Shown here one piece after another: positions 4,080-16,216 of a DNA stretch of 16,719 nucleotides. Source of the DNA: Rhodobacterales bacterium 34-62-10 (GTDB lineage: Bacteria > Pseudomonadota > Alphaproteobacteria > Rhodobacterales > Rhodobacteraceae); assembly GCA_002282555.1 (NCBI GenBank), contig NCJR01000010.1, forward strand, positions 1 through 16,719. Reading direction: 5' to 3'. The notes under the pieces are model-generated. The model saw nothing but the letters and a program-made list of their open reading frames with translations, made no database searches and was not told the origin of the DNA. Both the position numbers and the translations under genes were made by a program. Numbering within the stretch: the stretch's first letter is position 1; every line of letters begins with the position of its first letter.

Positions 4080-5111
4080 TCAGGCCCCGCGCACGGTGTC
4101 GATCATCAATTGCACATTTGCCGGGTCTGCATCCGGCGTGATCCCATGACCGAGGTTGAAGATATGCGGCCCGTTTTTCAACGCCTGCACGATGCGCCGC
4201 GTCTCGTCGATCAGTGCCTGCCCGCCTGTCACCATATGCGACGACTTGAGGTTGCCCTGCACACAGCTGTCGGGCTGCACATGCTGCGCCACCCATTCGG
4301 CGGTCACGGAATCGTCCACCGCCACGCAATCCGCGCCGGTGGCGCGGGCAAAGCCGATGTATTTGTCGCCCGCTTCGCGCGGGAAGGCGATGATCGGGAT
4401 GCCGGGGTGACGCGCCTTCAGCGCCGCGATGATCTCTTTCGCGGGTTCCAGCGCATAGGCGTCGAAATCGGCCCCTTTCAGGGATCCGGCCCAACTGTCG
4501 AACAGCTTGACCACTTCGGCCCCGGCCTCGATCTGGGCGGACAGATATTCGATGGTCGCCGCCGTGATCCGCGCCAGAAGCGCCTCGAACACCGCGCGGT
4601 TCTCGGCTTTCAACGCGTGGGCGGGGCCCTGGTCCTTGGTCCCCTGTCCCGCGATCATATAGGTGGCGACGGTCCACGGCGCGCCGGCAAAGCCGATCAG
4701 CGTCGTCTCGCGCGGCAGTTCCCGGCTGAGGATTCGCACCGTCTCATAGACCGGGTTCAGCGTCTCATGGATGGCGTCCACGGGTTTGAGCGCGTCCACA
4801 CCGGCCTGCGTGGTGATCGTGGACAGGCGCGGGCCTTCGCCGGTGACGAACCACAGATCAGCCCCCAGCGCCTGCGGGATCAGCAGGATGTCCGCAAACA
4901 GGATCGCCGCATCGAACCCATAGCGGCGGATCGGTTGCAAGGTCACTTCGGCCGCCAACTCGCTGTTGTAGCAAAGCGACAGGAAATCCCCGGCCTTTTC
5001 CCGCGTGGCACGGTATTCGGGCAGATAACGCCCCGCCTGTCGCATCATCCAGATCGGTGGCGTCGGCAGCGTTTCCCCGGCGAGCGCGCGCAAAATCGTT
5101 TTATCGGTCAT
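4080..5111 (-). CDS. hemE: Uroporphyrinogen decarboxylase
   Basis: HemE removes the four acetate carboxyls of uroporphyrinogen III to give coproporphyrinogen III in the cytoplasm. It is the first step committed to heme and chlorophyll rather than siroheme/cobalamin. At 343 residues it is full length. Signature 1, [17 protein letters not shown], contains the substrate-binding arginines R24 and R28. [12 protein letters not shown] carries the key aspartate D74. Signature 2 is [16 protein letters not shown]. The C-terminal [11 protein letters not shown] carries the conserved His. The start is set by AAGGGA 6 nt before the ATG. It is divergent from hemC, and one TGT-N12-ACA motif ends 4 nt upstream of its start codon, so a PpsR/CrtJ-type repressor could block it directly. 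Confidence 0.97.
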
Positions 5112-5114
5112 ATC

Positions 5115-5132
5115 TGTTCCCTTCGGTTGACA
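5115..5132. promoter_or_regulatory. PpsR/CrtJ-type site 1 (TGT-N12-ACA) in the hemE-hemC control region
   Basis: TGTTCCCTTCGGTTGACA is an exact match to the TGT-N12-ACA consensus bound by the aerobic photosystem repressor PpsR/CrtJ. It lies just upstream of the hemE start codon, and its right end is a perfect TTGACA -35-like hexamer on the plus strand. Assignment to PpsR is inferred from motif and gene context only. Confidence 0.6.
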
Positions 5133-5157
5133 GTTTCGTCCCCTCTGGGCGGCAAGA

Positions 5158-5180
5158 TGTCAAGCATCTGGTGCTTGTCA
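5158..5180. promoter_or_regulatory. Inverted repeat CAAGCA-TCTGG-TGCTTG between hemE and hemC
   Basis: Perfect 6-bp arms (5161-5166 and 5172-5177) extend to 9-bp arms with one mismatch (TGTCAAGCA / TGCTTGTCA). The left end is TTGACA on the minus strand, a possible hemE -35. The right end begins PpsR-type site 2. It could be a separate operator or a by-product of overlapping promoter elements. Confidence 0.4.
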
Positions 5181-5193
5181 GGTCAGCTTTACA
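5176..5193. promoter_or_regulatory. PpsR/CrtJ-type site 2 (TGT-N12-ACA) upstream of hemC
   Basis: TGTCAGGTCAGCTTTACA is the second exact TGT-N12-ACA match and the best of the three, since the flanks TGTCA...TTTACA also resemble the usual extended consensus. It ends 17 nt before the preferred hemC ATG, where it would overlap promoter elements. Confidence 0.65.
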
Positions 5194-5204
5194 TGACTAA
5201 CAAC

Positions 5205-5222
5205 TGTCGCATGACACTGACA
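5205..5222. promoter_or_regulatory. PpsR/CrtJ-type site 3 (TGT-N12-ACA) over the hemC start codon
   Basis: TGTCGCATGACACTGACA is the third exact match and spans the hemC ATG at 5211. It is separated from site 2 by 11 bp (29 bp centre to centre). Paired sites bound cooperatively are typical of PpsR/CrtJ targets, although the spacing here is not the 8-bp gap I recall from bch promoters. Confidence 0.55.
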
Positions 5223-6155
5223 CGCCCCACCCCCGCCTCACCGCTGAAGATCGGCACCCGTGGTTCGCCCTTGGCTCTGGCTCAGGCGCATGAGACGCGC
5301 GCGCGTCTGATGGCCGCCTTCGATCTGCCCGAAGCAGCCTTCGCCATCGTGGTGATCAAGGTCACGGGCGACGCGATACAGGACCGCCCGCTGAAAGAGA
5401 TCGGCGGCAAGGGCCTGTTCACCCGCGAGATCGAAGAGGCGCTGCTGGATGGCACCATCGACATCGCGGTGCATTCGATGAAGGACATGCCGGTCCTGCA
5501 ACCGGGCGGGCTGCTGTTGGACACTTATCTGCCGCGCGAGGATGTGCGCGATGCTTTCGTCGCGCAGGACGTGGCCGCACTCAAGGACCTGCCCGCGGGC
5601 GCGCGGGTCGGCTCATCCTCTCTCCGCCGCCGGGCACAGCTTCTGAATGCTTTCCCGCATCTGGAGGTGGTGGAGTTCCGTGGCAACGTGCAGACCCGGC
5701 TCAAGAAACTGGCGGATGGTGTGGCCTCGGCCACCTTTCTGGCACAGGCCGGTCTGAACCGTCTTGGCATGGCGCATGTGGCGCGCGGGGCCATCTCGCC
5801 TGATGATATGCTGCCCGCCGTGGCGCAGGGCGCCATCGGGATCGAACGCCGCGCCAGTGACACCAATACCGCCGCCATGCTGGAGGCCATTCATCACACC
5901 GAAACCGGCCAGCGCCTTGCCGCCGAACGCGCCTTCCTTGCCACGCTGGACGGGTCCTGCGAAACGCCCATCGCCGGTCTTGCGGAATTGAGCGGCACCA
6001 CCCTGCGACTGCGCGGCGAGGTGTTGCGCCCTGACGGGTCCGAAAAGATCGCCGACGACCGCAGCGCGCCCATCGCGGACGCGCCCGAAATGGCCCGCGA
6101 CATGGCGCAAACCCTTCTGAAACAGGCAGGACCCGGTTTCTTCGACTGGCGCTGA
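5211..6155 (+). CDS. hemC: Hydroxymethylbilane synthase (porphobilinogen deaminase)
   Basis: HemC polymerises four porphobilinogen units into hydroxymethylbilane in the cytoplasm, two steps before HemE. The 314-residue product begins with LKIGTRGSPLALAQA, typical of the family. Catalytic Asp92 lies in HSMKDMP, VGSSSLRRRAQL supplies the arginines that hold substrate carboxylates, and C250 (LDGSCETPIAG) is the thioether anchor for the dipyrromethane cofactor. The frame is open far upstream, but that part is antisense to hemE. ATG at 5211 (MTLTRPTP) is preferred; ATG at 5193 would add six residues. The leader is very short whichever start is used. hemD is not adjacent. Divergence from hemE and three TGT-N12-ACA motifs suggest shared oxygen/light control. 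Confidence 0.96.
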   Translation: MTLTRPTPASPLKIGTRGSPLALAQAHETRARLMAAFDLPEAAFAIVVIKVTGDAIQDRPLKEIGGKGLFTREIEEALLDGTIDIAVHSMKDMPVLQPGGLLLDTYLPREDVRDAFVAQDVAALKDLPAGARVGSSSLRRRAQLLNAFPHLEVVEFRGNVQTRLKKLADGVASATFLAQAGLNRLGMAHVARGAISPDDMLPAVAQGAIGIERRASDTNTAAMLEAIHHTETGQRLAAERAFLATLDGSCETPIAGLAELSGTTLRLRGEVLRPDGSEKIADDRSAPIADAPEMARDMAQTLLKQAGPGFFDWR

Positions 6156-11211: not shown

Positions 11212-12021
11212 TCACGGGTTGCGGATATCGCCGTCCGTGTTGTTCATCCGGGCCATCAGGGTGATCGCCTCCTCCTGCACCATCAGGTCACAGAACAGCG
11301 TCCGCTCCAGCGCCATGCGGTCAGGATCGGGTGCGGCCCCCCGGATCAGCCGCTTGATATGGGCCAGCGCCAGCGGTGGATGCACCGCCATGCGCCCTGC
11401 CATCCCCATGGCGTGATCCAGAACAGGCCCCGCGACGCAGGCATTGACCAGCCCCGCTGCGGCCGCCTCGTGCGGTGTGAATGTTCGCCCGGTCAGGCAA
11501 TATTCCAACGCGCGCGCCTGTCCCACCAGCAGCGAAAGGCGTTGCGTGCCGCCGGCCCCCGGCAGGATGCCCAGATTCACCTCGGGCAGACCGATCGGAT
11601 AATCGCCCGCCTGCGCCAGCCGGATATCGCAGGCCAGCGCCAGCTCGTATCCACCGCCCATGGCCGTGCCGTTGATCGCGGCGATATAGGGTTTCGCGCT
11701 GGTTTCGATCCGGCGCATGTTGCGGTGCAGCGCGGGTTCGGGAACGGGTCTGTCAGGCGTGAAGACCATCCCGCGCGCCGCCAGTTTGCGCGACCGCGCC
11801 TCAAGTACGCGGACATCATAATGGCGGATGAAAACACCCTCCTGCGCGCCTGTCAGGATCACGGCGCGGACTGTCTCATCCGCCTCGACCTGATCGAAGG
11901 CAGCGGTCAGTCCGGCCTCGGTCCCCTCGTCCATATAGCCTTCGGGCGGATTGGCGAAGCGGATCACGGCAATCGCGCCTTCAGTCGTGACAGTGACCGT
12001 GCCGGTATCGGGTCCGCTCAT
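11212..12021 (-). CDS. Enoyl-CoA hydratase/isomerase (crotonase family)
   Basis: A 269-residue crotonase, last gene of the P450-thiolase-ligase-hydratase operon. Both hydratase glutamates are present: E126 (GTAMGGGYELALACDI) and E147 (GLPEVNLGILPGAGGTQRL), which correspond to Glu144/Glu164 of rat mitochondrial hydratase. It should therefore hydrate a 2-enoyl-CoA to a 3-hydroxyacyl-CoA. The first oxyanion-hole segment is unusual: where most members have AGADI, it reads VFIRHYDV, suggesting a different substrate-binding edge, so another crotonase reaction is possible. ATG at 12021 overlaps the ligase stop (ATGA), implying coupled translation. No 3-hydroxyacyl-CoA dehydrogenase lies in the window to take the product further. 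Confidence 0.9.
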   Translation of the reverse strand: MSGPDTGTVTVTTEGAIAVIRFANPPEGYMDEGTEAGLTAAFDQVEADETVRAVILTGAQEGVFIRHYDVRVLEARSRKLAARGMVFTPDRPVPEPALHRNMRRIETSAKPYIAAINGTAMGGGYELALACDIRLAQAGDYPIGLPEVNLGILPGAGGTQRLSLLVGQARALEYCLTGRTFTPHEAAAAGLVNACVAGPVLDHAMGMAGRMAVHPPLALAHIKRLIRGAAPDPDRMALERTLFCDLMVQEEAITLMARMNNTDGDIRNP

Positions 12022-13640
12022 GCTTTTGCCTTTCGGATCAGCGCCTTGGCCTCACGCAGGTCGATGGCCACCGGATCGGCGCAGGGGTGCACGCCTTCGG
12101 GATAAAGGCGGTGTTTCTGCACCTTCTGCGTGCCGGTCACGGGCAGGCTGTCGCGGAACACGATCCAGCCCGGCAGCTTGTAATAGGCGATCCTGTCGCG
12201 CACAAAATCCATGATGGCTTCTGCCGTCGCGCAGTTTGGTGCATGGCCGGGGGCGGGGACGATGGCAGCAAAGACCTCTTCGTCGCGCATGGCGTCGGGC
12301 ACGGCGATCACGGCCACGGCACCCACGGCGGGACAGTCGATCAGCGCGTTCTCGACCTCGGCCGCCGAAATGTTCTCGCCCGACCGACGGATGATGTTCT
12401 TGGCCCGTTCGACGAACATCAGCATCCCGTCCTCGGTCTGCATCACCACATCGCCGGTATGGAACCAGTCGCCGCGCCACGCCTCCTCGGTGGCGGCCTC
12501 GTTCTTGAGGTAGCCCTTGAAGAACCCCTGCCGCGGATCGGGGCCGGGGGCGCGCACCACCAACTCGCCTGCCACGCCGCGCGGTACCTCGGCCCCCTGA
12601 TCGTCCACCACGCGCGCCAGCAGGTGATCGGCCAATGGCCGACCAAAGGCGCGGGTGTCGATCCGGCGCGGCGCATGGCAATCGGCAAGGAAGCGGCCCG
12701 TTTCGGTCATGCCCCAGACCTCGACCATGGGAAAGCCGAAGCGGTCCTCGAAGGCGCGGTGGATCGCGGGGTCCAACCCGGCGCCCAGACCATAGCGCAA
12801 ACCATGGTTGCGGTCCTGCGGGCCGGGCGGGGCTTTCATCAGCACAGGCGGGATGATTCCCAGATAATGGATCGCCGTGGCACGGGTCGCGGCCAGATCG
12901 TCCCACCATGTTTCAGCGTGGAAACGGTCGGGCACGATCAGGCACACCCCCTTGAGCAGCGCCATCGCGATGGTGTTGATCCCGGCATTGACATGGAAAT
13001 AGGGCAGCGGAATGAAGATCCGCTCGACCCCGTCACGCACGCTCAGCGCGCCGCCATGGGTCGCATAGACCCGCCCCACGGCAAAGGCATAATCATTGTC
13101 GATGATCGCCCCCTTGGGACGCGACGTGGTGCCCGAGGTGTAGATCAGCGCGATTTCCGTATTCAGCCCCGGTTGGACCTTCATCGCAGGGCGCGGTGCA
13201 GGCGGCGGTGTGAACCCGACCGGCGCGCTGTCATCATCCCAAAGCACCACCGGGATATCCGCCACGTCCGTGATCTTGTCCCGGTTCCAAGGCAGGCTGA
13301 CGGCGGCGTCGACCTCGGAATGATCCAGCAGATACTCCATTTCGTGCCGCAGGTAATAGGGATTGACCGGCACCTGCGACACACCCAACCGGTTGAGCGC
13401 CAGAAAATGCATGACATGGGCAGGGTGGTTGTCCAGCGCCAAGGCCACGCGGTGTCCGGGCCCCCAACCCGCCTTGGCCCAGGCTTCGGCCAGTGTGTCG
13501 ACCGCCCCAAGCATACCGGCAAAGCTGATCTCGGCCCCCATCGGCAGATACGGCCGACCTGCGCGGGGCGGCACAGCCAGAAATGGCCTGTCTCCATGGC
13601 GGGTGACGATCTGGCTTAGCGCAGCGTAAAGGGTCTGCAT
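12018..13640 (-). CDS. AMP-forming acyl-CoA synthetase (CaiC-like CoA ligase)
   Basis: A 540-residue adenylate-forming enzyme that activates a carboxylic acid to its acyl-CoA through an acyl-AMP. The P-loop A3 motif is YTSGTTSRPKG (167-177), A5 is GMTETG (G310-M311-T312-E313-T314), A7 is HTGD with the ribose-binding D397, A8 is RAKNIIRRSGENISAAEVE, and the catalytic Lys of the mobile C-terminal domain is K506 in GTQKVQKHR. All are intact. The overall pattern resembles crotonobetaine/carnitine-CoA ligases and other short or branched acid ligases, but substrate cannot be deduced. The start is the ATG overlapping the thiolase stop (TGATG); the longer frame runs into the thiolase gene. Its own stop overlaps the hydratase start. 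It is the likely entry enzyme of the operon's CoA pathway. Confidence 0.93.
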   Translation of the reverse strand: MQTLYAALSQIVTRHGDRPFLAVPPRAGRPYLPMGAEISFAGMLGAVDTLAEAWAKAGWGPGHRVALALDNHPAHVMHFLALNRLGVSQVPVNPYYLRHEMEYLLDHSEVDAAVSLPWNRDKITDVADIPVVLWDDDSAPVGFTPPPAPRPAMKVQPGLNTEIALIYTSGTTSRPKGAIIDNDYAFAVGRVYATHGGALSVRDGVERIFIPLPYFHVNAGINTIAMALLKGVCLIVPDRFHAETWWDDLAATRATAIHYLGIIPPVLMKAPPGPQDRNHGLRYGLGAGLDPAIHRAFEDRFGFPMVEVWGMTETGRFLADCHAPRRIDTRAFGRPLADHLLARVVDDQGAEVPRGVAGELVVRAPGPDPRQGFFKGYLKNEAATEEAWRGDWFHTGDVVMQTEDGMLMFVERAKNIIRRSGENISAAEVENALIDCPAVGAVAVIAVPDAMRDEEVFAAIVPAPGHAPNCATAEAIMDFVRDRIAYYKLPGWIVFRDSLPVTGTQKVQKHRLYPEGVHPCADPVAIDLREAKALIRKAKA

Positions 13641-14830
13641 CACACCCTCTCGATCAGCATGGCCATACCTTGCCCGGCGCCCAGACACATCGACAGGATC
13701 GCGCGCCGCCCGCCCGTGTCTTCAAGATGCTGCATCGCAGTCAGGCACATGCGCACGCCGGTCACGCCGGGCGGATGGCCAAGGCTGATGCCGCCACCAT
13801 AGAGGTTATGGATATCGCGAGGGATGCCCAATTGCGTCTCGGCATGGATATTGACGGCTGCGAAAGCCTCGTTGATCTCGACATAGTCGATATCAGCCAT
13901 CCGCAGTCCCCTCTTGTCCAGCAGGGCGCGGATCGCAGGGACCGGGCCATGACCCATGATGCGCGGCGGCACGCCGACGACGGTCCAGTCCACGATACGG
14001 GCGCGCGGGGCGATGCCCTTGGCTTCCAGCGCGGCGCGCTCGCCCACCAGAACAAAGGCCGCCGCATCGTTCACGGTCGATGCATTGCCCGCCGTCACCT
14101 TTCCGCCTGTGCGGAACGCCGGGCGCAGACGCGCCAGCTTGTCGGGCGTGGCATCGGCGCGGACACATTCATCGGTATCGAAAATACGTGTCGTCCCCTT
14201 GCCCGCGTCCGGGTCCGGCACGTCCACACCCATGATCTGCCGCGCCAGAAACCCCGAGGCTTGCGCCGCACGTGCACGGCTTTGGCTGAGGGCGCCCCAC
14301 GCGTCCATCGCCGCGCGGGTCAGGCCGTAATCCTCGGCCAGATTTTCCGCCGTCTCGCCCATGTATTCAAGGCTGAAGGGGCAGCGATAGGCCCAGTCAA
14401 GCATATCCTCCAGCGTGGCAGGGCCGCGCTTGACGCCGCCGCGCAGGGTGGTGACGGCATGGGGAACGCGGGAATAGCTTTCGGCACCGCCCGCGATGGC
14501 CAGCCGCGAATGGCCGCTATCCACCTGTTGCGTGGCCGACAGGATCGCCTGCAGACCCGAGGCGCAGGCCCGTACCACCGACAGGGCACCCGAGGATTCG
14601 GGCAAACCCGCCTTCAGCCCGACCACGCGCGCCCCGAACAGACTGTCGCGTCCCGATGGCACCGTCGAAGCCAACACGATATGGTCCAGATCATCCGGGC
14701 TGATGCCCGCACGCGCGATGCAACCCTTGGCCACCGTCGCGGCAAGGTCCGTCATTTCGATGGCGCTCAGGCTTCCGTCAAAGGCGCCAAGCGCGCTGCG
14801 GATGCCCCCTGCGATCACTGTATCTGCCAT
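13640..14830 (-). CDS. Thiolase (acetyl-CoA C-acyltransferase type)
   Basis: A 396-residue thiolase that cleaves a 3-oxoacyl-CoA with CoA, or condenses two acyl-CoAs in the reverse sense. The acylated nucleophile is C89 in VVRACASGLQA, NEAFA is present, the general-base H352 lies in GGGISLGHPPGVTG, and the second catalytic Cys is C382 in SMCLGAGQG. The GHPPG and CLGAG motifs differ slightly from the usual GHPLG and CxGGG, suggesting a non-housekeeping paralogue. It starts at ATG 14830 with GAGGGA upstream; the frame continues 21 codons beyond without family similarity. It is second in the operon, 49 nt after the P450 and overlapping the ligase start, and would perform the final chain-cleavage step of beta-oxidation of the activated acid. 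Confidence 0.93.
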   Translation of the reverse strand: MADTVIAGGIRSALGAFDGSLSAIEMTDLAATVAKGCIARAGISPDDLDHIVLASTVPSGRDSLFGARVVGLKAGLPESSGALSVVRACASGLQAILSATQQVDSGHSRLAIAGGAESYSRVPHAVTTLRGGVKRGPATLEDMLDWAYRCPFSLEYMGETAENLAEDYGLTRAAMDAWGALSQSRARAAQASGFLARQIMGVDVPDPDAGKGTTRIFDTDECVRADATPDKLARLRPAFRTGGKVTAGNASTVNDAAAFVLVGERAALEAKGIAPRARIVDWTVVGVPPRIMGHGPVPAIRALLDKRGLRMADIDYVEINEAFAAVNIHAETQLGIPRDIHNLYGGGISLGHPPGVTGVRMCLTAMQHLEDTGGRRAILSMCLGAGQGMAMLIERV

Positions 14831-14879
14831 GGTCTTTCCCTCAAAGGTGCGGCCGCCGGGCCCCTTGCGTGCTGTGGCG

Positions 14880-16109
14880 TCACTTGATTTCAACAGGCAT
14901 CACACGCGGCCCGCGCATGATGATGGTGGCGTGCCACTCGATGGGCTCTGCCGCAAGCCTCAGCGTGGGAAGCCGCTGCACCACGCGCGGAAAGGTCACC
15001 TCGCCCTCAAGCCGGGCCAGCGCAGCCCCCATGCAGAAATGCACCCCATAGCCAAAGGTCAGATGTCGATTCGGTTTGCGTTCGATATCGAAATGCTGGG
15101 CATCCTCGAACATCGACGGGTCCTGATTGGCGGTGTTGATCATCGCAAATACCCGTTCACCGGGGCGAAGCGTCTTGCCATGCAGCACATGTTCCTCGGC
15201 CACCATCCGGGCCATGGAACCCGAAGGCCCATCCAGCCGCAGACATTCCTCGACTGCGGATTTCGCCAGTTCCGGAGTGTCGGCCAGCAGGCGCGCGGCC
15301 TCGGGGTGCGCGATGAATTTGGACATCCCCCCCGCCAGCAGGTTGGCGGTGGTTTCATGCCCGCCGAACATGACCAGCATGCAGGCGGCGACCAGCTCAT
15401 CCTCGGTCATGGCGTCATCGGCCTCACGCGCAGCAATGAACGCCGAGATCAGATCGTCGCGCGGCGCGGCGCGGCGTTCGGCGATCAGCCCACGGAACAG
15501 CGTTGCCATCTCATGCGCGCCTTCGGCCGCACGTTCATACTTGTCGGGCGCATTGCGCGCGGACCCGATGAAAAGCTGCATCCGGTCCGAACAGGATTTG
15601 AGATAGAACATGTGTTCGCGCGGCACGCCCAAAAGGTCCATGATGACCATAGCAGGCAATTGCATCGCGAAATCATTGACGAAATCAAAGACCTGACCGC
15701 GTGGCAGGCGGTCTATCAGGATGTCGCAGATATCCTCGACCCCCGGACGCAGGACCTCGACCGCACGCATGGTGAAGGCGCGTCCCATCAGTTGCCGCAA
15801 TCGCGTGTGTTCCGGCGGATCGCGGAACACCAGCCACAAGGTCAGATACCGCATGAGTTCGGACAAAGCCGTTTTCTCGGCGGCAGGCAGGCTTTCATAG
15901 AAAGGGCGGATGCGATCGACCGACATATCGGCCGAGGTCAGCGCCGCCTTCACATCATCGTAACGTGTCAGCACCCACGCCTTCAGTTTGGGATTCCAAT
16001 GGGCGGGGTCTTGCGACTGCAGGCCCAGAAGCGCGGGGTAGGGGTTCCTGACCACATATGGATCCGTCGGGTCATAAGACGGCTGGGCCGCCTTCAAAGG
16101 ATTGGTCAC
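14880..16109 (-). CDS. Cytochrome P450 monooxygenase (soluble bacterial class I)
   Basis: A heme-thiolate monooxygenase of 409 residues from the preferred GTG at 16109, which has GGGAG 7 nt upstream; ATG at 16205 would give 441 residues with a non-P450 extension. The I-helix oxygen-activation motif is G249-G-H-E-T253 (GGHETT), ExxR is E288-R291 (EECLR), and the heme loop FGYGVHFCMG contains the axial Cys359. There is no membrane anchor, so it is cytosolic and needs a ferredoxin and ferredoxin reductase, neither of which is in the window. As first gene of the operon with thiolase, CoA ligase and enoyl-CoA hydratase, it probably hydroxylates or oxidises the same substrate to allow its breakdown. 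The CYP family cannot be assigned from sequence alone. Confidence 0.95.
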   Translation of the reverse strand: MTNPLKAAQPSYDPTDPYVVRNPYPALLGLQSQDPAHWNPKLKAWVLTRYDDVKAALTSADMSVDRIRPFYESLPAAEKTALSELMRYLTLWLVFRDPPEHTRLRQLMGRAFTMRAVEVLRPGVEDICDILIDRLPRGQVFDFVNDFAMQLPAMVIMDLLGVPREHMFYLKSCSDRMQLFIGSARNAPDKYERAAEGAHEMATLFRGLIAERRAAPRDDLISAFIAAREADDAMTEDELVAACMLVMFGGHETTANLLAGGMSKFIAHPEAARLLADTPELAKSAVEECLRLDGPSGSMARMVAEEHVLHGKTLRPGERVFAMINTANQDPSMFEDAQHFDIERKPNRHLTFGYGVHFCMGAALARLEGEVTFPRVVQRLPTLRLAAEPIEWHATIIMRGPRVMPVEIK

Positions 16110-16198
16110 AAGGTATCTCCCAGCTCTTATGGTCGCGCTTCGCCATCTGGTTGCGTTGATGGCGTCAAGCATCTCCTCTTTAGCAACGTAAACCTTAC

Positions 16199-16216
16199 CA
16201 AGCAATCGTTTGCTTG
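16199..16216. promoter_or_regulatory. Perfect 18-bp operator-like palindrome between P450 operon and TRAP gene
   Basis: CAAGCAATCGTTTGCTTG has perfect 7-bp arms around TCGT, a size typical of TetR/GntR-type dimers. On the plus strand it overlaps TTGACT (16214-16219), followed after 17 bp by CATTGT (16237-16242), a plausible promoter for the TRAP gene. On the minus strand TTGCTT (16205-16200) is followed after 17 bp by TAAAGA, a weak candidate for the P450 operon. One bound repressor could therefore silence both directions. Confidence 0.65.

Follow-up and report, generated by a model that had tools for sequence, protein, structure and literature searches.

The region between hemE and hemC is very probably a divergent promoter pair that carries a predicted PpsR operator, in which one exact TGT-N12-ACA motif (motif 2) would block hemC and two others (motifs 1 and 3) are additions of the genus. 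Heme, siroheme and bacteriochlorophyll all depend on hemC and hemE, and hemC also serves other tetrapyrroles. With a photosystem repressor site on the hemC/hemE promoters, a general pathway may become coupled to phototrophy, and be released from it where phototrophy disappears. The window, by which we mean the whole stretch of 16,719 nucleotides analysed, comes from a genome that is 72% complete and whose nearest named hemE loci are those of Rhodobacteraceae.

Motifs and putative promoters between hemE and hemC

Rescanning of the window placed exact TGT-N12-ACA motifs at 5115-5132, 5176-5193 and 5205-5222, just where the sequence-only reading had put them. The features of the region are the following.

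4080..5111, minus strand: hemE, uroporphyrinogen decarboxylase (TIGR01464, 414.9 bits)
5115..5132: motif 1, TGTTCCCTTCGGTTGACA, in the hemE leader over the probable hemE ribosome-binding site, a possible third operator; kept in 7/7 genus genomes
5135..5140, minus strand: GACGAA, possible hemE -10 box, a weak match placed by 17-base spacing only
5158..5163, minus strand: TTGACA, putative hemE -35 box, back to back with the hemC -35 box, 11 bases between
5175..5180, plus strand: TTGTCA, putative hemC -35 box, conserved across named loci
5176..5193: motif 2, TGTCAGGTCAGCTTTACA, predicted to be the main PpsR operator; it overlaps the -35 box and spacer of hemC and corresponds in promoter position to the ChIP-seq site of R. 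sphaeroides hemE
5198..5203, plus strand: TAACAA, putative hemC -10 box, 7 bases before the ATG, proposed from conservation
5205..5222: motif 3, TGTCGCATGACACTGACA, spans the hemC start codon and may be a second operator; kept in 7/7 genus genomes
5211..6155, plus strand: hemC, hydroxymethylbilane synthase (TIGR00212, 331.7 bits)

Motifs 1 and 2 are 43 bases apart, motifs 2 and 3 only 11. The hemC start codon falls within motif 3, as had been claimed, and the distance from motif 1 to hemE is 3 bases, not 4. The claim that hemF has no motif is right, as there is no exact match in or beside that gene. Rfam gave no match in the window. Judged by eye from the translations, a frame at 14880-16205 of the window resembles cytochrome P450 and adjoins thiolase-, acyl-CoA ligase- and enoyl-CoA hydratase-like frames (11212-14893).

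That the three motifs are a chance cluster is highly improbable. A fourth exact motif was found at 4964-4981, within the hemE coding sequence, and a total of four is unremarkable for the window: the shuffle mean is 1.90 and at least four motifs appeared in 29 of 200 shuffles. As shuffles reach four readily, we discarded the total as evidence. It is the clustering that speaks against chance. The genome of the window contains 284 sites in 2,662,631 bases, and at this density 0.0115 sites are expected in 108 bases, with a probability of about 2.5e-7 for at least three at a given place. The chance figure of 0.03 given earlier was thus somewhat high, and the clustering beyond chance that it was meant to support holds. 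Furthermore, motif 2 has counterparts at this promoter position in 64 PpsR-positive genomes of other genera. This cross-genus comparison contradicts chance for motif 2, and motifs 1 and 3 may each, taken singly, be chance matches. Across the genome, the motif hardly outnumbers its backward control (284 vs. 248), and therefore single sites mean little.

The promoter boxes were placed by conservation and not by a sigma-70 consensus scan, which reported no promoter in the region and lends them no support. hemC starts at the ATG at 5211-5213; an in-frame ATG at 5193 is absent from three of the seven genus genomes (G004, G001 and G005). TTG 34-37 bases before the hemC ATG, together with a 17-base spacer, was present in 60 of 70 loci (25/26 PpsR-positive and 35/44 PpsR-negative) when the best-scoring choice was taken for each locus, and TGTCAA was present somewhere in the region in 61 of 70. 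The hemC transcript predicted from these boxes would be nearly leaderless. The two -35 boxes form an inverted repeat (5158-5166/5172-5180), and motif 2, which starts one base inside the hemC -35 box, occupies 13 of the 17 spacer bases.

Phototrophy genes and conservation in the genus

PpsR is encoded in the genome of the window (TIGR02040, 464 bits; cut-off, 275.4). The ppsR gene is located at C446 and surrounded by bchB, bchN, bchF and bchG, and bchJ is located on C67. Exact motifs are also found upstream of bchF (L106:3527 and 3670) and bchJ (L107:1180). NCBIfam gave no match for an open frame that lies upstream of ppsR (L106:3709-4593); from its position, we take it to be the ppaA/aerR gene. 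No Photo_RC gene was found in G000, G002, G003 or G004, the search of the own genome covering a 72%-complete assembly, and the siblings G001, G005 and G006 have two each. The sequence-only reading had predicted a phototroph, and ppsR and the five bch genes agree with this, although a puf reaction-centre gene was not found in the incomplete genome.

All three motifs are exact in the seven genus genomes, and motif 2 varies internally among them yet stays an exact match. Motif 1, on the other hand, lies in a stretch that is conserved almost wholly over its length. The motif in the hemE coding sequence (4964-4981) is likewise kept in all seven, probably through the HemE protein, and this is a warning on how motif conservation is to be read. 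Because this coding-sequence motif is kept alike, we discarded conservation in the genus as proof for motifs 1 and 3. In L104 (G001), there is an 11-base insertion between motifs 1 and 2, approximately one helical turn, which resembles a duplication of neighbouring bases.

G002 (locus L100) has neither PpsR above the family cut-off nor Photo_RC, yet it retains all three motifs. Its locus has 88% DNA identity to that of the window, the HemC proteins are 97% identical, and over 3919 bases the G002 locus matches the MAG locus L001 at 100% identity. The absence of PpsR from G002 may be a recent loss, and retention of the motifs does not show another function.

It is possible, though we lean against it, that all three motifs are bound jointly, PpsR on motifs 1, 2 and 3 bridging both promoters and covering both translation starts. 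Exact conservation of the three motifs in the genus despite the internal variation of motif 2 is consistent with this. Motifs 2 and 3 are also the only TGTC-type tandem pair (gap of at most 30 bases) in the own, incomplete genome, and the pair recurs in the six siblings. Of the TGTC-type tandem pairs in three siblings, three of six in G001 and three of six in G006 are on the ppsR and puf contig, and four of five in G005 are on the puf contig. Against joint binding stand the equal conservation of the hemE coding-sequence motif, the conservation of the stretch around motif 1 over its whole length, and the gap between motifs 2 and 3, which is 11 bases (12 in G005), unlike the 8-9 bases of described close pairs. 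In addition, 64 of 66 hemC operators retrieved from the family (see below) are the only exact site between -130 and +60, one of the 66 stretches being cut short on the scanned side where its contig ends. We retain motif 2 as the main predicted operator.

Predicted operators on hemC across the family

Among 80 named hemE loci, 78 genomes were searched (L045 and L058 were left out). PpsR was found in 26 of the 78, in one of them (L006) as a fragment under the cut-off. Photo_RC was found in two further genomes, L037 and L043, which were moved from the PpsR-negative genomes to the phototrophs, and in none of the 44 PpsR-negative genomes without a motif. With phototrophs defined by PpsR or Photo_RC, all 78 genomes were used, as 28 phototrophs and 50 others. 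A motif is present within 300 bases of hemE in 22 of the 28 phototrophs vs. 6 of the 50 others (p = 5e-9). The six non-phototrophic carriers are L001, which is a sibling, L007, L062 and L066, with the motif on the hemC -35 box, and L028 and L038, with the motif elsewhere; six of the 28 named phototrophs have no exact motif. When the table was confined to loci with a recognised divergent hemC, leaving out eight with an unrecognised hemC start, the motif was present in 20/26 PpsR-positive and 7/44 PpsR-negative loci (p = 5.5e-7). Two of 55 control patterns reached p < 0.05, namely GTT-N10-AAC (4/26 vs. 0/44, p = 0.016) and TGT-N14-ACA (10/26 vs. 2/44, p = 5e-4). The latter was rejected as a separate signal, since in 9 of 12 loci it arises from an N12 site with CA directly after it or TG directly before it; it is separate from an N12 site in L023, L038 and L051. 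Tree-based independent pairs, from a tree that omits L001 as the duplicate of L100, gave 3.7 in the same direction and 0.0 in the opposite direction, which is not significant (median p = 0.125).

Could promoter conservation by itself produce motif 2? TTGTCA would then be simply the hemC -35 box, with the downstream ACA present by chance or through promoter constraint and PpsR playing no part. TTGTCA is indeed common in PpsR-negative genomes as well (20/44 vs. 20/26 PpsR-positive), ACG stands in place of ACA in eight of the 23 PpsR-negative loci with TGT, a single-base difference from the motif, and G002 retains the motifs without PpsR. The half-site TGT belongs to the -35 box too, and once TGT is given, the ACA half is present in only 12/22 vs. 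4/23 loci (p = 0.013), which speaks against the operator reading. We nevertheless regard promoter conservation alone as quite unlikely. Operators on the hemC -35 box were found in 12 of 28 phototrophs vs. 4 of 50 others, and those elsewhere in the region in 11 of 28 vs. 3 of 50 (L010 is counted in both classes). Since operators off the -35 box are also commoner in phototrophs, conservation of this box does not by itself explain the association. The differing places of the operators among phototrophs look like operator turnover within one control region. In five PpsR-negative loci (L030, L039, L046, L050 and L072), we observed TGTCA...GACG at the hemC -35 box, one base off an operator, as if decayed.

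Also against promoter conservation by itself stands a composite pattern of the hemC-type -35 box, the ACA half-site, the -10 TA and the ATG, searched in 394 family genomes (393 genera). It matched 86 of the 394 and its backward control matched one. We retrieved 91 of 93 listed places and read the gene start: 66 are at hemC, 64 of them in PpsR-positive and two in PpsR-negative genomes, and 25 are elsewhere. When G000 and G006, whose hemC was already known, are added from the listing, the hemC operator is present in 66 of 165 PpsR-positive genomes vs. 2 of 229 PpsR-negative genomes (Fisher's exact test, 1e-26), the composite form being absent in 99 of the 165. Thus, as had been predicted, presence of the motif follows phototrophy in relatives, both in named and in family genomes. 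Among the 25 matches elsewhere, 22 have a start that, judged by eye, resembles crtI (phytoene desaturase); for all three that were tested, TIGR02734 was the best match, under the cut-off with partial sequences. As crtI is a CrtJ/PpsR target, the crtI-like matches serve as a useful positive control.

Binding data point in the same direction. The PpsR ChIP-seq site of R. sphaeroides hemE (RSP_0680) is a 20-mer with a low enrichment of 1.7 and an expression value of -2.23 (Table 2 of PMC4344238, accessible part), which agrees with the earlier statement that heme-pathway genes are known PpsR/CrtJ targets in Rhodobacter, hemC/hemE being such a target region. This 20-mer is found exactly over the hemC -35 box of G151, which we took for R. 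sphaeroides or a close relative, and is the positional equivalent of motif 2. Three more site 20-mers of R. sphaeroides (bchC, bchF and puc) had no match in the sequence searched, from which these promoters of G151 are absent. It had also been asked of the three motifs that they be conserved in phototrophic relatives; this is so for motif 2, which recurs family-wide, whereas no named locus outside the genus has motifs 1 and 3 at exactly these places. Nearby operators outside the genus are those of L010 and L035 on the hemE side and of L006 on the hemC side.

Proposed control and known systems

We propose that under oxidising conditions PpsR would bind motif 2 and cover the hemC -35 box and spacer, and RNA polymerase would be excluded. 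Because the hemE -35 box is only 11 bases off, back to back, the same bound PpsR could hinder hemE too. When PpsR is relieved, HemC and HemE, which both belong to the shared trunk of tetrapyrrole synthesis, would increase along with the products of the bacteriochlorophyll genes. Motifs 1 and 3, as genus-specific additions, may strengthen repression. The sequence-only reading had both genes blocked at or near initiation by sites at the start codons; we do not follow it here, as motif 2 would act on the hemC -35 region instead. We also think it unlikely that PpsR grips both divergent hem promoters via three operators, of which one covers a nearly leaderless start codon, and represses both transcription start and the first codon, with another regulator having taken over the operators in G002. 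Whether operators decay can be seen directly in PpsR-less lineages such as G002.

Moskvin et al. in 2005 reportedly named hemC and hemE as direct PpsR targets, and are said to have found that repression by PpsR takes two sites with permissive spacing. The window has three motifs, with gaps of 43 and 11 bases, and only one exact site was found in 64 of 66 relatives. Close pairs of PpsR/CrtJ sites have a gap of 8 or 9 bases, and sites 76 and 240 bases apart have been described as well (PMC4452267, accessible part). Our literature search, with most subscription papers outside its reach, yielded no family-wide comparison of the hemC operator, including in the accessible parts of PMC10949492, PMC5643017 and PMC6739100. 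As far as this search shows, the proposed placement on a nearly leaderless hemC promoter, the apparent spread over phototrophic genera, the likeness to crtI and the three-motif form of the genus would be new.

The arrangement resembles known ones. In R. capsulatus bchC, a CrtJ operator lies over the -35 box, as motif 2 does at hemC, and a second palindrome lies over the -10 box with 8 bases between, whereas motif 3 covers the start codon at a distance of 11 bases; hemC does not appear in the accessible main text of this ChIP study of R. capsulatus CrtJ (PMC5362033). The crtI promoters of the family genomes have the same composite of -35 box, operator, -10 box and nearby ATG as hemC, and crtI, unlike hemC, is a carotenoid gene; crtAI (PMC5362033) and crtI (PMC4452267) are CrtJ/PpsR targets according to the accessible parts of these papers. 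In R. sphaeroides, hemE (RSP_0680) and hemC (RSP_0679) form the same divergent pair as in the window, and the ChIP-seq 20-mer lies on the hemC -35 box of G151 likewise. PrrA ChIP has also been reported on this hemE/hemC region (PMC4263372, accessible part). The genus of the window has three exact motifs, whereas the operator of the G151 locus (L144) is the only exact motif there between -130 and +60. In R. sphaeroides, PpsR is already known to control hemC/hemE; what is described here is a known kind of control with a sharper promoter model.
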